64,000 nucleotides of DNA from contig NZ_JAQRMY010000001.1 of the NCBI RefSeq assembly GCF_028613635.1, forward strand, positions 105,778 to 169,777. The letters are read 5' to 3'. The position numbers and the translations under genes were made by a program. How positions within the stretch are numbered: position 1 is the stretch's first letter; the number at the start of each line of letters is the position of its first letter. Positions 10,755 through 59,765 of the stretch are shown in pieces. Under the pieces are notes generated by a model. The model ran no database searches and was not told the origin of the DNA. It saw only the letters and a list, made by a program, of their open reading frames with translations. This stretch comes from Devosia sp. ZB163. GTDB taxonomy: Bacteria > Pseudomonadota > Alphaproteobacteria > Rhizobiales > Devosiaceae.

Positions 10755-11588
10755 TCAGCCTTTCACCGCGCCGGACATGAAGCCGCGCACATAGTACCGC
10801 TGCAGCAGCAGGAACAGGATGATGCACGGCAGCGCCATCACAACCACGCCCGCTTCGGTGGCACCGTAATTGATCACACCCATCGTCTGCTGGCGCAGGT
10901 TGGCGACCGTCACCGGCAGGGGCTGCTTGGTCGGGTCGGTCAACAGGATCAGCGGCGCGAAGAAGTCGTTCCACGCGGCAAGGAAGGCGAACAGGCCCAC
11001 CGTCACCAGACCCGGCGTAACCGATGGCAGCATGATCCGCCAGAGCACCCCGAAACTGTTGCAGCCATCGATCTGCGCCGACTCTTCCAGCTCGCGCGGG
11101 ATCGCCTCGAACGAGATGCGCATCATGTAGGTGGCGAACGGCAGCTGGAACATGGCGATCATCAGCGCCACGCCGACCAGCGAGTTGGAGAGCCCCACCG
11201 CATTGAGCAGCACGTAGAGCGGGATGAGCAGCGTGGCGTACGGCACCATCAGGATCGATAGCGTCAACAGGAACAGCGCGTCCTTGCCCCAAAACTTGAA
11301 CCGGGCGAAGGCATAGCCGCCCAGCGTCGAGACGGCCAGCGTGATGGCGACGGTGAGGATCGAGATCACCGCGCTGTTGGCTGCGACCGTTGGCAGCCCG
11401 GCGCCGAAATCGAACATCGTCTGGTAGTTGCCCCAGCCGAAGCCCTTGCTCTGCGCGGTGCCCGCCTGCGGGCTCACCGAGGCGTAAAAGCTCCAGACCA
11501 GTGGGAACAGGAAGATGATGGCGAGGCCGCCCGTCAGGACATAGTACGGAGTGCGGCCGAGTAGCGGCTCTTGTTTGCCGGCAATCAT
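10755..11588 (-). CDS. Sugar ABC transporter permease, CUT1 family (MalG-like)
   Basis: This 277-residue inner-membrane protein has six predicted helices and the permease EAA-type loop (EESAQIDGCNSFGVLWRIML), which contacts the ATPase. The start at MIAGKQEPLL lies 2 bp after the stop of the other permease, so the two are translationally linked; the longer in-frame extension to 11810 overlaps that gene and is not protein-like. It forms the channel for the sugar delivered by the binding protein encoded upstream. No ATPase gene is in the cluster. Confidence 0.93.
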   Translation of the reverse strand: MIAGKQEPLLGRTPYYVLTGGLAIIFLFPLVWSFYASVSPQAGTAQSKGFGWGNYQTMFDFGAGLPTVAANSAVISILTVAITLAVSTLGGYAFARFKFWGKDALFLLTLSILMVPYATLLIPLYVLLNAVGLSNSLVGVALMIAMFQLPFATYMMRISFEAIPRELEESAQIDGCNSFGVLWRIMLPSVTPGLVTVGLFAFLAAWNDFFAPLILLTDPTKQPLPVTVANLRQQTMGVINYGATEAGVVVMALPCIILFLLLQRYYVRGFMSGAVKG

Positions 11589-54054: not shown

Positions 54055-55866
54055 CTACTCGGCCGCCTCGAGCCCCTTGATCAGCTCGAGCGCCTGGCGC
54101 TCGAACAGGCGGCGGTAGATGCCTTCCGCCCGCTTGACCAGTTGCTCGTGCGTACCCTCCTCGACGATCCGGCCATCATCGAACACCAGCAGGCGGTCGA
54201 GGGCGCGGACTGTCGAAAGCCGGTGGGCGATGACGATGGTGGTACGGCCCACCATCAGCCGCTCCATCGCCTCCTGGATCAGCTGCTCGCTCTCGCTGTC
54301 GAGGCTCGAGGTCGCCTCGTCGAGGATGAGCACCTTCGCATCGGACAGGAACGCCCGGGCGATGGCGACGCGCTGCCGCTCGCCGCCCGACAGCTTGATG
54401 CCGCGCTCGCCCACCAGCGTCTCGTAGCCCTTGGGCAGCCGCATGATGAAATCGTGGGCGTTGGCGAGCTTGGCCGACGCCTCGATTTCGGCCCGGCTGG
54501 CGCCCGGCTTGCCATAGGCGATGTTCTCGGCCAGCGAGCGGTGGAACAGCACCGGCTCCTGCTGGACGATGGCGATCTGCTGGCGCAGCGAGGCCTGCTG
54601 CACGTCGCGGATGTCGACGCCGTCGATGGCGATCCGGCCGCCGGTCACGTCGTGCAGCCGCTGGATCAGCTTGACGAAGGTCGTCTTGCCCGAGCCCGAA
54701 TGCCCAACGAGACCAACCTTCTGGCCGGGCGGGATGGTGACGTCGAGATCGGTGTAGAGCGGCTCGAGGTGCGGACCATAGTGGAAGTCGACATGTTCGA
54801 ACCGGATGCCGCCCTCCTTGACGGTGAACGGCTTGGCGCCCGGCTTGTCCTCGATGCCGAGCTTCTGGTCGTTGAGCCCGACCAGTTCTTCCATGTCGTT
54901 CACCGCGCGCTGCAGGTTGCGCACGTGCTGGCCGATGTCCCTGAGGTAACCCTGGAGGACCAGGAACGTGGTGATGACGAAGGTGACGTCACCGGCAGAA
55001 GCCGACCCGTTTGCCCACAGCATCAGGCCCGAGCCGATGATGACGCAGCGCAGCACCCACAGCATCGCGTTCTGGACGGTGCCGTTGAACGTTCCCCGGT
55101 TCCAGGTCCGCGACGTGCGCTTGCGCCACTTGTCGACGACGAGGCGCAGGCGGCTCTCCTCGCGATCCTCGGCGCCGAAGCCCTTGACCACGATATTGCA
55201 CGAGATGGCGTCGGCCAGCGCCCCGCCCATCCTCGTGTCCCAGGCATTGGCGAGGCTGGCCGCCGGCGCCACCCACAGTGTAGAGAGGCTGACTGTCACC
55301 GCGATGTAGATGAGCGAGCCGATGCCGACGACCAGCCCCATTACCGGCCAGAACAGGCTCAGCATGATGGTCGATCCGATGAGCATCACCAGCGAGGGAA
55401 AGAGCGCCATCAGCAGCACGTCGTTGAGGCTGTCGAGCGCCCACATGCCCCGCGTGATCTTGCGCACGGTCGAGCCGGCAAAGGCATTGGCATGCCAGTC
55501 CGACGAGAACCGCTGGACGCGGTGGAACGCGTCCTGGGCAATGTCGCTCATCCTCCTCAGCGTCAGTGCGATGATCTGCTGGAAGGCGAACTGACGCAGG
55601 ATCACCGATCCGGCCCCCAGCGCCACGATGGCGAAGAAGGCCGTCATCGCCGCGTTCCAGGCGACTTCGTTGCTCGCTGCCCCCGTCGCCACCGCCTCGA
55701 CCAGCCGGCCGGCGAAATAGGGGGTGAGGATATCGGCAACCGTCTCGGTGAAGAACAGCCCGACAATCAGCGCGACGCGCCTGGGCTGCTTGCGCCAGTG
55801 TCCGGCGGTAAAGCCCAGCACCTTGGCATAGGCCTGCCCGCGCAGGTTGGATGTGGTGGAAGCCAT
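54055..55866 (-). CDS. ABC exporter (fused membrane and ATPase domains)
   Basis: The 603-residue half-transporter has an N-terminal six-helix domain (residues about 25-335) and a C-terminal ATPase with Walker A GHSGSGKTTFVKL, signature IKLSGGERQRVAIARAFL, Walker B VLILDEATSSLD and the switch His in IAHRLSTV. It works as a homo- or heterodimer to export lipids, drugs or peptides. The ATG at 55866 fits the family; the frame to 55920 is possible but less likely. The cargo is unknown. Confidence 0.95.
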   Translation of the reverse strand: MASTTSNLRGQAYAKVLGFTAGHWRKQPRRVALIVGLFFTETVADILTPYFAGRLVEAVATGAASNEVAWNAAMTAFFAIVALGAGSVILRQFAFQQIIALTLRRMSDIAQDAFHRVQRFSSDWHANAFAGSTVRKITRGMWALDSLNDVLLMALFPSLVMLIGSTIMLSLFWPVMGLVVGIGSLIYIAVTVSLSTLWVAPAASLANAWDTRMGGALADAISCNIVVKGFGAEDREESRLRLVVDKWRKRTSRTWNRGTFNGTVQNAMLWVLRCVIIGSGLMLWANGSASAGDVTFVITTFLVLQGYLRDIGQHVRNLQRAVNDMEELVGLNDQKLGIEDKPGAKPFTVKEGGIRFEHVDFHYGPHLEPLYTDLDVTIPPGQKVGLVGHSGSGKTTFVKLIQRLHDVTGGRIAIDGVDIRDVQQASLRQQIAIVQQEPVLFHRSLAENIAYGKPGASRAEIEASAKLANAHDFIMRLPKGYETLVGERGIKLSGGERQRVAIARAFLSDAKVLILDEATSSLDSESEQLIQEAMERLMVGRTTIVIAHRLSTVRALDRLLVFDDGRIVEEGTHEQLVKRAEGIYRRLFERQALELIKGLEAAE

Positions 55867-56107
55867 GTCGATTGTCCGGCGACTGCAGAAGGCAGCCAAC
55901 CGGTCCCGGTCTGAAAACAAATCTGGAAGAATGAAGCCGGGCTGTCCCCGGCGGCGGGCTGGGTCCGTGGCGGACCGCGGGCTACCTAACGGTGGTAGCC
56001 GCTGGCTTGCCCAGCGAGGCGAGGTCGAAATGCTGTCATGTCGCGCCTCCCTGGCTGCAGTCGAGAGCTGTCAGTCATAGAGGGGTTTGGGTGGCGCGGC
56101 AAGCCCG
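55867..56107. other. Intergenic region between the ABC exporter and the Amt-linked small ORF
   Basis: These 241 bp hold the exporter's promoter on the minus strand. No gene or strong repeat is recognised; short frames crossing it have no ribosome-binding site. Confidence 0.4.
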
Positions 56108-56206
56108 CTAGAGCGCGGCCGCAATAGCCATCGGCGCCAATACGAAGAGAATAATCAAGGCGATCGACGGGAAGTCGACGAACTTTGCCTTGTCCTTGAG
56201 CGACAT
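56108..56206 (-). CDS. Putative 32-aa single-span membrane peptide downstream of the second amt gene
   Basis: The ATG at 56206 reads MSLKDKAKFVDFPS, then one hydrophobic helix (IALIILFVLAPMAIAAAL) and a stop. A basic, soluble N-terminus followed by a single span is typical of small regulatory membrane proteins. The ribosome-binding site GGAAGGAGAG is very strong but lies inside the stem of the hairpin at 56207-56254. It is 56 bp after the amt stop on the same strand, so co-transcription is likely. No family is recognised. Confidence 0.6.
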   Translation of the reverse strand: MSLKDKAKFVDFPSIALIILFVLAPMAIAAAL

Positions 56207-56254
56207 GGAACTCTCCTTCCGCCCTCAGAAACGCTGGGCGGAAGGAGACGTTCC
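56207..56254 (-). promoter_or_regulatory. 18-bp hairpin that encloses the ribosome-binding site of the 32-aa ORF
   Basis: GGAACTCTCCTTCCGCCC (56207-56224) pairs with GGGCGGAAGGAGACGTTCC (56236-56254) with only a one-base bulge and an 11-base loop. On the minus-strand mRNA the 3' arm contains the GGAAGGAGAG site immediately before the ATG. The structure should therefore block translation unless opened. Confidence 0.8.
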
Positions 56255-56262
56255 GTTGCCGC

Positions 56263-57465
56263 TCAGAACTCCGGTTCGGCCCCGATCGAGTGGATCGAGA
56301 GGTCAGCGCCGCGACGTTGCTGCTCGTCCCCGAGGCGGATGCCGAAGAGCCGGTTGGTTGCGTAGTAGAGTGCATAGCCGGCGACGAAGGCGAAGGCCGA
56401 GACCGCCAGCGAGCCGACGAGCTGGCCCAGGGGGCTGACCCCACCCATGCCGCCGAGTGCCTCGAGGCCGAGCACGCCGGCAGCCACCCCGCCCCACAGG
56501 CCGCACAGCCCATGCAGCGGCCAGACGCCGAGAACGTCGTCGACCTTGAGCTTCTCCTGCGTCCAGATGAAGCCCCTGACGAAGATCACGCCCGCCACGC
56601 CGCCAACGACGAGCGCCGCGATCGGATGATAGAGGTCCGAGCCCGCGCATACGGCGACGAGGCCCGCCAGCGCCCCGTTGTGGGTGAAGCCGGGGTCGCT
56701 GCGTCCAACAACGACCGCGGCGATGATGCCGCCAACCATGGCCATCAGCGAGTTGATGGCAACGAGCCCCGAGACCCCCGCCACCGTTTGCGCCGACATG
56801 ACGTTGAAGCCGAACCAGCCGATGCAGAGCAGCCACGTGCCGAGCGCCAGCCACGGGATCGAGGACGGCGGGAACGGCCGGCCGTTCGGCCCGTAGCGTC
56901 CGGTGCGCGCACCGATCCGCAGCACCGCCGCGAGTGCCAGCCAGCCGCCCAGCGCATGCACCTGGATCGAACCGGCGAAATCGTGGAAGCGGGCCCCGAA
57001 GGTCGCCTCGAACCAGGCCTGTATGCCGTAGTTTCCGTTCCACACGATGCCTTCTGAGAACGGGTAGATCAGCCCTACGATCACCGCCGCCGAGAAGACC
57101 TGCGGCCAGAACCTTGCCCGCTCGGCGATGCCGCCCGAGATGATCGCCGGCACGGCGGCGGCAAAGGTCGCCAGAAAGAAGAACTTCACAAGACTGAAGC
57201 CCTGCGGCGCGAAACCGGCACCGCCACCCGACAGCGTCGCCGCATCGTGCAGGAACGTGACGCCATAGGCGATCGTGTAGCCGATTGCGAAATAGGCCAG
57301 CGTCGAGAAGGCGAAGTCGACAAGGATCTTCACCAGGGCATTGACCTGGTTCTTGCCACGCACCGTCCCCATTTCGAGGAAGGCGAAGCCGCCATGCATG
57401 GCGAAAACGAGAATGGCACCGACGAGCACGAAGAACACGTCGAGTCCGGCATTGGACTCCGTCAT
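56263..57465 (-). CDS. Second ammonium transporter (Amt family, no signal peptide)
   Basis: The 400-residue membrane protein has the Amt order: GGFAFLEMGTVRGKN, the periplasmic Asp and first pore His in HDFAGSIQVHALGG, WFGFNVMSAQT, and the second pore His in WPLHGLCGLWGGV. Unlike the 57961 protein it lacks a cleavable leader and differs widely in sequence, so it is an old paralogue. GGGAGG decides the start at MTESNAGLDV. A sigma-54-type promoter lies at 57521-57536. It may act as a transporter or sensor. Confidence 0.92.
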   Translation of the reverse strand: MTESNAGLDVFFVLVGAILVFAMHGGFAFLEMGTVRGKNQVNALVKILVDFAFSTLAYFAIGYTIAYGVTFLHDAATLSGGGAGFAPQGFSLVKFFFLATFAAAVPAIISGGIAERARFWPQVFSAAVIVGLIYPFSEGIVWNGNYGIQAWFEATFGARFHDFAGSIQVHALGGWLALAAVLRIGARTGRYGPNGRPFPPSSIPWLALGTWLLCIGWFGFNVMSAQTVAGVSGLVAINSLMAMVGGIIAAVVVGRSDPGFTHNGALAGLVAVCAGSDLYHPIAALVVGGVAGVIFVRGFIWTQEKLKVDDVLGVWPLHGLCGLWGGVAAGVLGLEALGGMGGVSPLGQLVGSLAVSAFAFVAGYALYYATNRLFGIRLGDEQQRRGADLSIHSIGAEPEF

Positions 57466-57960
57466 CTGAGACCTCCCAAAAGACCCGGCTCGCATCCGGG
57501 GTTATTCAGAAGGCAACACAATCAAGCCGCGTGCCATCCCGGGGGATGCCGGATCAGTCAATCAGATCAACTGGTTGAATGAATCGGACAAATATCGACC
57601 GCGCCGCGGGAAGCGACGTGCCTACCAAATGGGCGATCAACGGCCAACTGCTGCCCATGAATCAGGCAGACGCGGGTCGTCTGGCGGGACGTCCGGGCCC
57701 GTTGCCGGGCATCGGTCCGTTGATCGGGGTGTGCAGCCCACGCATTTGCGAGTGGGAAGCCTCTGTGGCGGGCCAAGAGGTACGCAGGCTGCACGCCGCG
57801 ATCAGCGGCAGGAGGAGCGTCTTCAAGGAAAAGTTGCAGACTTTTCCGGTTCGAAGGCGCGACCAACCGAAGGCGACGAGATCGGAGAGCCAGGCAGGCC
57901 CGGCTCCCCGGAGTTTGGCGCGGGACGGAGGGGAGGAGATCCCCGCCCCACGCCATTCGC
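57466..57960. other. Intergenic region between the two amt genes
   Basis: About 495 bp without a convincing gene. The part near 57521 holds the sigma-54-type promoter of the second amt gene, and an imperfect dyad TCAATCAG-atcaa-CTGGTTGA lies at 57558-57578 just upstream of it. A 157-codon plus-strand frame here overlaps the end of amtB and has no family resemblance. Confidence 0.55.
57521..57536 (-). promoter_or_regulatory. Sigma-54-type promoter of the second amt gene
   Basis: Read on the minus strand: TGGCACGCGGCTTGAT. The -24 block TGGCACG and the spacing to TTG are those of RpoN promoters; the -12 C is replaced by A. Transcription would start about 45 bases before the ATG at 57465. The glnK-amtB promoter has the same element. 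Confidence 0.75.
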
Positions 57961-59328
57961 TTAGTTGTAGGCGCGCTCGCCGTGGCTCGAGAGGTCGAGG
58001 CCATCGCTCTCGGCCGACTCGGAGACACGGGCGCCACCGAACACGGCCTTGACGATCAGCATGGCGATCAGCGCAACCACGGCCGACCAGACGATGGCGA
58101 TACCGACGCCGGTCAGCTGCTTGATGAACTGGCCCCACATCTCGTAGTCGGGCAGCGGGTAGCCGCCGAACGACGGGTTGGCGACGAAGGCGGTGCCCAG
58201 CGCGCCGACGATGCCGCCGACGCCATGGATGCCGAACACGTCGAGCGAGTCGTCGTACTTGAACATCGGCTTCAGCGTCACGACGGCCCACAGGCAGACC
58301 ACGCCGGCAATGGCGCCGAGGATGATCGCACCGACCGTACCGGCGAAACCGGCGGCCGGGGTGATGGCGACGAGGCCGGCAACCGCACCCGAGGCAAAGC
58401 CGAGGAGCGAGGCATGACCGCGGGTGAACTTCTCAGCCACACCCCATGCAAGGGCCGCGGCGGCCGGAGCAGTGATGGTGTTGAGGAAGGCCTGGGCGGT
58501 CAGGCCGTTGGCTTCGAGGTTCGAACCTGCGTTGAAGCCGAACCAGCCGAACCAGAGCAGGCCCGTACCGATGAACACGAAGGTCAGGTTGTGCGGCGGA
58601 ATGGGTTCCTTGAGGAAGCCGGTGCGCGGCCCGAGGACGATCGCGGCGACGAGAGCGGCGACACCCGAGTTGATGTGCACCACGGTACCACCGGCGAAGT
58701 CATAGGCGCCGAGGTTGAACAGGTAGCCCGTGCCGGCCCAGACCATGTGGGCGATCGGCAGGTACGAGAAGGTGAACCAGATCGCGAGGAACAGCATCAC
58801 GGCACCGAACTTCATCCGCTCGGCGATACCGCCGACGATGAGGGTGGTGGTGATGCAGGCGAAGGTGAGCTGGAACACCACGAACACCAGTTCGGGCAGC
58901 TGGAAGCCGGCCGAGAAGGTGGCGGCGGTCGACTCGATCGTCACGCCCGAGAGGAACAGCTTGTTGAAGTCGCCGATGATGGCGGAAAGACCGCCCTCCG
59001 CGCCGCCGAAGGCCAGCGAGTAGCCGTAGGCGACCCAGAGCAGCGCGATCATGGCGACGCCACCGAGCACCTGGCTGAAGATCGAGAGCACGTTCTTGGC
59101 GCGCACGAGGCCACCGTAGAACAGGGCGAGGCCCGGCACGATCATCACGAAGACGACCATGGTCGAGACCAGCATCCAGGCGGTATCGCCCTTGTCGATG
59201 ACCGGGACGACTTCTGCGACGACCTCAGCCGCCGGAGCGGCCGCTTCCTGCGCAAAGGCGGGCAGTGCGAGAGCCAGCGAGGCCAATGCCGCAGCCCCCA
59301 GTACTTTTGACATTTTCACGTCTGTCAT
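57961..59328 (-). CDS. amtB: Ammonium transporter AmtB
   Basis: The 455-residue protein has a leader peptide (VLGAAALASLALALPAFAQ) and an Ala/Val-rich linker. Eleven membrane helices follow, with GGLVRAKNVLSIFSQ, the Asp and pore His in YDFAGGTVVHINSG and the second pore His in VFGIHGVGGIVGALGT. It conducts ammonium into the cell as a trimer gated by GlnK. It lies 26 bp after glnK on the same strand. GGAGAA precedes the ATG at 59328. Confidence 0.97.
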   Translation of the reverse strand: MTDVKMSKVLGAAALASLALALPAFAQEAAAPAAEVVAEVVPVIDKGDTAWMLVSTMVVFVMIVPGLALFYGGLVRAKNVLSIFSQVLGGVAMIALLWVAYGYSLAFGGAEGGLSAIIGDFNKLFLSGVTIESTAATFSAGFQLPELVFVVFQLTFACITTTLIVGGIAERMKFGAVMLFLAIWFTFSYLPIAHMVWAGTGYLFNLGAYDFAGGTVVHINSGVAALVAAIVLGPRTGFLKEPIPPHNLTFVFIGTGLLWFGWFGFNAGSNLEANGLTAQAFLNTITAPAAAALAWGVAEKFTRGHASLLGFASGAVAGLVAITPAAGFAGTVGAIILGAIAGVVCLWAVVTLKPMFKYDDSLDVFGIHGVGGIVGALGTAFVANPSFGGYPLPDYEMWGQFIKQLTGVGIAIVWSAVVALIAMLIVKAVFGGARVSESAESDGLDLSSHGERAYN

Positions 59329-59354
59329 TGTTGTTTCTCCGAATGATTGCGGCA

Positions 59355-59693
59355 TCAGAGCGCGGCCGCGCCGGTTTCGCCGGTGCGGATGCGGGTAACG
59401 GCCAGGAGGTCCAGGACGAAAATCTTGCCGTCGCCGATGCGGCCCGTCTGGGCGCTCTCGCGGATGGCCGAGACGATGGCGTCGGACTGGGCATCGTCCA
59501 CGGCGATCTCGATCTTCAGCTTGGGCAGGAAGTGCACGGCGTATTCGGTGCCGCGGTAGATTTCGGAATGACCCTTCTGCCGGCCATAGCCTTTGACTTC
59601 GGTCACGGTCATGCCGTGCACGTCGAGCGAGTTGAGGGCCTGCCGGACCTCCTCCAGACGCGACGGTTTGATGATTGCGATCACCAGCTTCAT
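59355..59693 (-). CDS. glnK: Nitrogen regulatory PII protein GlnK
   Basis: The 112-residue PII protein has MKLVIAIIKPSRLEEVRQAL, the T-loop KGYGRQKGHSEIYRGTEY with Tyr51 at the uridylylation position, and the C-terminal GRIGDGKIFVLDL. It senses 2-oxoglutarate, ATP/ADP and glutamine state and closes AmtB. The start at 59693 follows AAAGGGG. It is the first gene of the glnK-amtB operon under a sigma-54-type promoter. Confidence 0.97.
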   Translation of the reverse strand: MKLVIAIIKPSRLEEVRQALNSLDVHGMTVTEVKGYGRQKGHSEIYRGTEYAVHFLPKLKIEIAVDDAQSDAIVSAIRESAQTGRIGDGKIFVLDLLAVTRIRTGETGAAAL

Positions 59694-59749
59694 GGATGCC
59701 CCTTTCAACACGTGGGTTTTTGACGGTCTCCCAATCGGCTCTTTCAGAC

Positions 59750-59765
59750 TCAAGTCGCGTGCCAA
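59750..59765 (-). promoter_or_regulatory. Sigma-54-type promoter of glnK-amtB
   Basis: On the minus strand the site reads TTGGCACGCGACTTGA, the RpoN -24/-12 pattern with A instead of C at -12. The predicted transcription start lies about 45 bases before glnK. It matches the second amt promoter at 14 of 15 shared positions. Confidence 0.8.

Follow-up and report, generated by a model that had tools for sequence, protein, structure and literature searches.

A 32-codon gene with a hairpin-buried Shine-Dalgarno sequence behind an ammonium transporter gene of Devosia, a candidate membrane accessory of Amt2

In the 64,000-nt stretch of Devosia sp. ZB163 DNA analysed here (the window), the second ammonium transporter gene, amt2, is followed by a 32-codon ORF, for which we use the working name sp (56206-56108, minus strand). 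The original prediction that an 18-bp hairpin buries the Shine-Dalgarno (SD) sequence of this ORF, whose start lies directly at the hairpin foot, was confirmed by the fold, the arms and the coordinates. Judged by its codon-level constraint, the ORF is a real gene, since it is found behind amt2 in 8 of 136 genomes of the family, always with 32 codons and with a pooled pN/pS of 0.34. With little more than even confidence, we favour the reading that sp is the hairpin-gated last gene of the amt2 unit and that its product is a small accessory or brake of Amt2 in the membrane. This reading starts from the coding constraint, the conserved RNA structure, the linkage of sp to amt2, the joint absence of both in one genome (G096) and a promoter-like motif, all of which were observed. 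The features concerned are as follows.

56108-56206, minus strand: sp, 32-codon ORF (ATG...TAG), product MSLKDKAKFVDFPSIALIILFVLAPMAIAAAL, predicted single-span small membrane protein
56207-56254, minus strand: 18-bp hairpin (13 + 5 bp) with an 11-nt apex containing CGTT; the 3' arm holds the SD region GGAAGGAGA; from fold and covariation
56212-56224, minus strand: paired inner 3' arm that carries the SD; the SD region is unpaired with a probability of 0.006
56236-56248, minus strand: inner 5' arm, anti-SD CTCCTTCC; SD core paired in 8/8 copies, with one bulged base here in G099
56263-57465, minus strand: amt2, Amt/MEP/Rh ammonium transporter; Pfam PF00909 (Ammonium_transp), E 1.8e-81
57521-57536, minus strand: sigma54-like promoter site TGGCACGCGGCTTGAT; 10 of 11 scored positions, lacking the C of the -12 GC
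57619-57668, minus strand: two 17-bp dyads (57652-57668 and 57619-57635) resembling NtrC sites; found by eye, conserved in an alignment of amt2 upstream regions
57961-59355, minus strand: amt1, the neighbouring first amt gene; PF00909, E 3e-115
59355-59765, minus strand: neighbouring glnK (PII-like), named by eye; tblastn match in 14 of 18 amt2 regions
56074-56102, minus strand: promoter-like TTGCCG-N17-TATGAC of the ABC exporter unit, directly past the sp stop; found by eye, not listed by a consensus scan covering this stretch

Coding constraint and predicted product of sp

A tblastn search of the 32-residue product against the 136 family genomes returned its own match and seven relatives (E 1.6e-8 to 1.1e-3 per genome). 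Ten further genomes gave weak matches (E 0.08-0.95), which were parts of other frames (apparently so in G132 and G135, where they lay within 67-80 aa stretches), except for a probable distant homolog in G091. The eight sequences align gap-free over 32 residues, with 56-63% identity to the window copy, and M1, S2, A7, K8, F9, D11, F12, I15, L17, P25 and A27 are invariant. Start, length and the TAG stop are kept in all eight. Silent sites diverge about three times faster (pooled pN/pS above); single pairs ranged from 0 to 0.73, with the G099 pairs among the highest, and in some pairs amino-acid changes exceeded silent ones despite the pooled value. Variable columns numbered 17, 13 and 26 at codon positions 1, 2 and 3, and over codons 2-32 third positions varied more often (26/31) than first and second positions together (30/62; Fisher 0.0014, a test that treats columns as independent). 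The coding part of the original prediction is thus borne out by the eight copies, the pooled pN/pS and the codon-position bias.

AlphaFold2, run on the eight-row alignment, predicted a helix over residues 12-31 (mean pLDDT 80.6, pTM 0.37), within which the hydrophobic stretch lies, and a single hydrophobic helix is thus predicted. Because basic residues precede this helix, the protein would be oriented with its N-terminus inside. A Pfam search of sp at E 1 gave no family, and neither did an NCBIfam search for any of the 10 members of the sp family alignment.

The buried Shine-Dalgarno sequence

The gap of 56 nt between the amt2 stop and sp holds the hairpin. Its outer arms, GGAAC (56254-56250) and GTTCC (56211-56207), form 5 bp and are parted from the inner stem by an unpaired base at 56249, and the inner arms (56248-56236 and 56224-56212) form a perfect 13-bp stem closed by an 11-nt loop. 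The SD GGAAGGAG lies within the 3' arm close before the ATG, up to which the pairing reaches. Folding energy, a check proposed with the original prediction, was -80 kcal/mol for a 166-nt region (z -4.55; 0/200 shuffles as good). A perfect 13-bp stem with a loop of 3-20 nt occurs only here in the window. The mean unpaired probability of the SD region was 0.006 as against a median of 0.36 for 131 ORFs of at least 150 aa, which were called mechanically and include spurious ones; the SD region of one of these 131 was as inaccessible. A scan of the window for GGAG-ATG sites closed by pairing with a CTCC arm found the sp site and one weaker site, before a 29-codon frame. Rfam gave no match at the hairpin and one chance-level match elsewhere.

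The hairpin is present in all eight sp copies (MFE z -3.3 to -6.2; 0-3/300 shuffles fold as well). In each of them the SD sits in the stem with its core paired; eight core pairs, anchored on the SD, are identical, with one bulged 5'-arm base in G099. The upper stem drifts yet pairs: when pairs were taken from each sequence's own fold, position -4 was G-C, C-G or A-T; positions -5 and -6, both unpaired in G000 and G023, had four and five pair types; position -2 was G-C or A-T and unpaired in G092 and G088; and position -3 was unpaired in G086 and G089. A covariance model trained on five copies found the other three (G099, G086 and G089) as genome-best hits (E 7.7e-7 to 8.4e-6).

The covariation check proposed with the original prediction likewise found compensatory changes, with the SD pairing and the CGTT loop kept in all copies. 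In the hairpin alignment, 91.2% of the cells were paired (0/500 shuffles as high), whereas slid partners gave 44.6-59.2%. The covariation score was 0.185 against a shuffled mean of 0.093 (0/500 as high), and 0.189 against 0.107 (4/500) for the five training copies alone. Four pairs (20/500 shuffles as high) and six cells (0/500) changed on both sides, and eight further pair types were present (46/500). These counts come from a sense-only alignment of seven distinct copies and, for seven related sequences in an alignment fitted to the structure, the shuffle counts are not probabilities. MAFFT misplaced the 5' arms of three copies, and other alignments were used for the hairpin counts. This comparison marks the hairpin as a conserved RNA structure, maintained through compensatory changes, in which the SD is closed off. 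A partner is suggested by the invariant CGUU loop, although common ancestry alone could preserve four bases. The pattern CTCCTTCC...GGAAGGAG...ATG occurs once each in 8 of the 136 genomes, before sp in seven and before another gene in G026, and its reversed form occurs in none of them.

The foot of the stem lies 4-9 nt past the amt2 stop in seven of the eight copies and about 180 nt past it in G099. The intergenic insert of G099 (L009 1645-1828) has 56 matching places in that genome including itself, most of them over a 46-nt part; it therefore holds a dispersed repeat, behind which hairpin and ORF stand intact and together. At E 1, the hairpin model had no match in the regions of the 10 amt2 orthologs that lack sp. 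By these comparisons, the hairpin is an element of sp and not of the amt2 end.

The amt2 unit and the distribution of sp

The minus-strand order is glnK, amt1, amt2, the 56-nt gap, sp and then a unit with an ABC exporter. The mechanical ORF of amt2 opens at 57495, and the start at 57465 is preferred because GGGAGG precedes it. The sigma54 consensus is TGGCAC-N5-TTGCW, with GG at -24 and GC at -12. The original prediction had given amt2 a sigma54-type promoter of its own. The conserved site stands: of the 17 orthologs with a readable upstream region, 16 have one matching 9-11 of 11 positions and lying 36-68 nt upstream of the start as mapped mechanically; the best site of G027 is out of place, and the contig of G095 ends so that its upstream region is not readable. 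Against the promoter assignment, the -12 C is absent from 13 of the 16 sites, that of the window included, and present in G102, G085 and G094, of which G094 scores 11/11. Over both strands of the window, two sites scored at least 10; the other one (10 of 11) lies at 10859-10874 on the plus strand and reads TGGCACCGTAATTGAT. By their apparent likeness to the NtrC consensus, the two upstream dyads are putative NtrC sites.

The interval from amt2 to sp contains no called terminator, and a promoter-like element of the exporter stands behind the sp stop; we therefore infer from the sequence that sp lies on the same transcript as amt2. Readthrough from amt2 into sp was considered and rejected, since the distance from the amt2 stop to the sp ATG keeps no constant frame. 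Between TTGCCG-N17-TATGAC and the exporter, a 17-codon leader ORF was seen (MTAFRPRLAGQASGYHR, 56039-55986, minus strand). A motif scan found near-identical leaders in seven of the eight sp genomes and a variant in G096; a possible role is that of an attenuator leader peptide for the exporter.

Orthologs of amt2 (E 1e-60 or less) are present in 18 of the 136 family genomes. In eight of these, sp lies behind amt2, at 53-57 nt in seven and after the repeat in G099; the other 10 (G102, G085, G094, G101, G090, G098, G087, G027, G091 and G008) lack it. The original prediction had named two patterns that would speak against it: an amt gene kept without the ORF was found in these 10 orthologs, and a frame-disrupting change beside a kept hairpin was not seen among the eight copies. 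Since 10 of 18 orthologs do without sp, Amt2 does not need it. Hence the proposed role as a subunit or regulator of this Amt does not hold for a general subunit, and sp is, on its distribution, a lineage-specific accessory at most. On the amt2 tree, the sp label needs two changes (1-2 over bootstraps).

The order amt2-sp-exporter is common to the eight sp genomes, with glnK-amt1 upstream in seven (the contig of G095 ends inside amt2). In G023 (L123), sp is intact though nearby genes match in pieces: amt1, amt2, the exporter and a fourth gene match separately and partly in different frames, and assembly errors are more likely than decay. The exporter is present in 17 of 19 genomes of the genus and lies elsewhere in the eight genus genomes with amt2 but without sp; no exporter match was found in the regions fetched around the 10 sp-less amt2 genes, which for G085 and G094 extended only about 0.7 and 1.5 kb downstream. 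In G096, amt1 and the exporter stand in the same order without amt2 and without sp, and the exporter tree, built from 17 genomes without G023, nests this genome in the sp clade (fork 100/99). A blastn alignment of G096 with the window breaks off at 57675 and picks up again at 56108, with 45 nt in between. The missing block comprises the sigma54-like site, amt2, the hairpin and sp, and it ends at the sp stop. This joint absence may be one chance deletion of neighbours that spared the exporter promoter.

A search with the family profile pointed to a frame of 30-32 aa at another locus in G091, a row of the profile, and in G087 (E 2e-6), which is outside it. By eye, the G091 frame (L059/L012) has a mannose-1-phosphate guanylyltransferase-like gene on one side and N-formylglutamate amidohydrolase-like and glutamine-synthetase-like genes on the other, and the G087 flank (L060) looks the same. 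In return, a two-row profile of G091 and G087 found sp of G099 (E 0.0036) and of G000 (E 0.05), but a 14-residue match in a longer G019 frame scored better (1e-4). Sequence similarity makes it likely that the two frames are homologous to sp. The hairpin model matched neither of their leaders, although folding pairs part of each SD, and the best sigma54 scores there were 6 and 7 of 11, too low for a sigma54-like site. Given these distant copies, the sp family, as the profile defines it, is not tied to amt2 alone; all 10 genomes with sp or a distant homolog also have amt2.

Wider searches gave no further sp-like gene. Among 397 genomes of the order, profile matches at E ≤ 0.01 were found in five: the window's own and four inside frames of 200-442 aa. 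Among 385 genomes of the class, 26 places besides sp matched at E ≤ 0.1; none of the five examined (L088, L093, L101, L102 and L103) was a sp-like gene, and the other 21 were judged by match range and frame length. A scan of genome contigs turned up two loci, on contigs equal in length to those of G095 and G099. A plasmid search gave no match at E 1. More distant amt2 homologs gave hits in 53 other genomes, of which 29 loci were read; in 3/29 a hydrophobic frame of 33-43 aa started within the first 250 nt, none of the three with an SD before it; at one of the 29 loci only 114 nt were readable.

Possible role of sp and control of its translation

The expression and role of sp may be as described below. 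Under nitrogen limitation, the sigma54-type promoter, with its NtrC-like dyads, would yield an amt2-sp mRNA; sp probably closes this amt2 unit, which would be under nitrogen control. Amt2 would be translated freely from this common mRNA, while the ribosome site of sp is folded in the 18-bp hairpin and the 32-residue, N-in single-span protein would be made rarely or on opening. The opener could be a ribosome finishing amt2 near the hairpin foot together with breathing of the stem, or a factor or RNA meeting the invariant CGUU loop. Once made, sp would most likely be a small membrane accessory or brake of Amt2, like AcrZ or MgtS. What we infer here is control by nitrogen, a single mRNA, a low rate of translation, insertion into the membrane, contact with Amt2 and the opener of the hairpin; action on Amt2 in particular is suggested by the linkage and by the joint absence in G096. 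Taken together, sp is best read as a small single-span protein of one lineage, produced at a low level or in response to a signal, with this Amt as its probable target.

Opening by the amt2 ribosome was modelled by masking nucleotides after the amt2 stop, a crude stand-in for a terminating ribosome. With a mask of up to 14 nt, the SD remained closed in all seven copies with the stop nearby. With 20 nt, its unpaired probability was 0.13-0.34 in five of the seven and 0 in G086 and G089; G099, masked from 60 nt before the ATG, behaved alike. In E. coli, reinitiation across 38 nt is poor, with 80-90% or complete loss (PMC10666635). Simple translational coupling is therefore doubtful. Coupling through RNA unfolding has been described at +52 nt for rpmI-rplT (PMC12548453), where, as in sp (53-57 nt in 7/8 copies), structure shuts a downstream ribosome-binding site; unlike that case, the SD-pairing arm of sp lies wholly past the stop, and the 14-nt mask leaves the SD shut. 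In these models, sp could be coupled to amt2, though not by a simple route, and the hairpin of G099 would have to be opened in some other way.

That a small protein may act on an Amt channel is shown by sP36 of Methanosarcina mazei, whose target is AmtB1 (PMC10714827). In both cases a small protein is linked to an ammonium transporter, and sP36 also to nitrogen status. By description, however, sP36 (61 aa) is a soluble protein without a transmembrane helix that is recruited from the cytoplasm, whereas sp has 32 aa and one predicted hydrophobic helix; because sP36 lacks a membrane helix, sp is not of its kind. AcrZ, MgtS and MgtR/MgtU, small membrane regulators of transporters (PMC10710835), resemble sp in being small, membrane-bound (predicted for sp) and transporter-linked. 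They have reported partners, while Amt2 is only a candidate partner of sp. By the marks of the AcrZ/MgtS kind, sp would be a protein of under 50 aa (32 codons, kept under coding constraint in all eight copies), has one predicted helix and is genetically linked to the transporter in all eight copies, yet 10 of 18 amt2 genes lack it.

Among the other explanations, sp may be a real, hairpin-gated gene for a general small membrane protein of nitrogen starvation, serving membrane, respiration or stress, which shares the promoter without acting on Amt2. We regard this as unlikely, though worth serious attention. The amt2 orthologs without sp and the position of the G087 and G091 homologs apart from amt genes speak for it, but all eight close copies lie behind amt2, G096 lacks both genes, and amt2 accompanies sp or its distant homolog wherever either occurs. 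Another explanation concerns the hairpin, which might serve mainly as a 3'-end or processing element of the amt2 mRNA (a stabiliser or an RNase III site), with sp translation secondary. Long stable stems often protect upstream mRNA, and the hairpin foot is close to the amt2 stop in 7/8 copies. In G099, however, the repeat parts the stem from amt2 and the stem stays at the sp start; the sp-less amt2 regions (0/10 at E 1) do not match the hairpin model; and the SD is in the stem in every copy. We therefore consider such a role quite improbable. The original prediction had offered as its alternative that the hairpin merely stabilises the amt mRNA and that the ORF is incidental, and this is contradicted by the codon constraint and by G099. 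Short frames are indeed common, and 32 codons alone are weak evidence, but with length, start and stop kept throughout and silent sites diverging faster, the codon-level constraint contradicts an incidental open sequence, to which we give hardly any credence.

It is also conceivable, but improbable, that sp is a hydrophobic peptide resembling type I toxins of the TisB kind, whose SD is locked to hold back membrane depolarisation. TisB (29 aa) is likewise small, with a single hydrophobic span and an inhibitory structured leader (PMC8309996), so that such toxins and sp share a length of about 30 aa, one hydrophobic helix and a leader structure. Against this, sp is inherited vertically at one syntenic place, fixed behind a metabolic gene, and the plasmid search was empty. 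Nor was an antitoxin RNA seen: a scan of both strands of 55700-57900, crude enough to miss the promoter-like element of the exporter as well, found no sigma70-type promoter for an antisense RNA.

If sp is indeed the gated accessory of Amt2, a membrane micro-protein encoded with an Amt and carrying its own translational lock would add a second layer of control. PII proteins are established regulators of bacterial Amt channels (PMC10710835), and the Amt entries consulted there were GlnK/PII only. Titles and abstract openings of open-licence PMC articles gave no transmembrane small protein encoded behind a bacterial amt. A bolder version, which we hold only tentatively and think unlikely, is that no bacterial ammonium channel was known before sp to have a transmembrane micro-subunit or brake, and that the dose of sp would be set by an RNA switch, the conserved SD-locking hairpin with its invariant CGUU loop, which only a specific signal would open; Amt2 and its brake would then share one nitrogen-starvation mRNA and be uncoupled at translation. 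The case is directly testable, with a tiny gene, natural hairpin variants, genomes with amt2 and without sp, and a genome without both.

The sp hairpin model also matched two other loci, L192 in G017 (E 9.4e-4) and L193 in G043 (E 1.6e-3), where from about position 1501 an SD hairpin and a CGTTGG stretch stand directly before the ATG of proline-rich ORFs of 68-69 aa. These hairpins hint that SD locks are a wider theme in Devosiaceae. In L195, L196, L197 and L198 (G048, G057, G061 and G040), a GC-rich hairpin, alike in the four genomes, abuts the SD of a 501-aa ORF, which presumably resembles a transhydrogenase alpha subunit.
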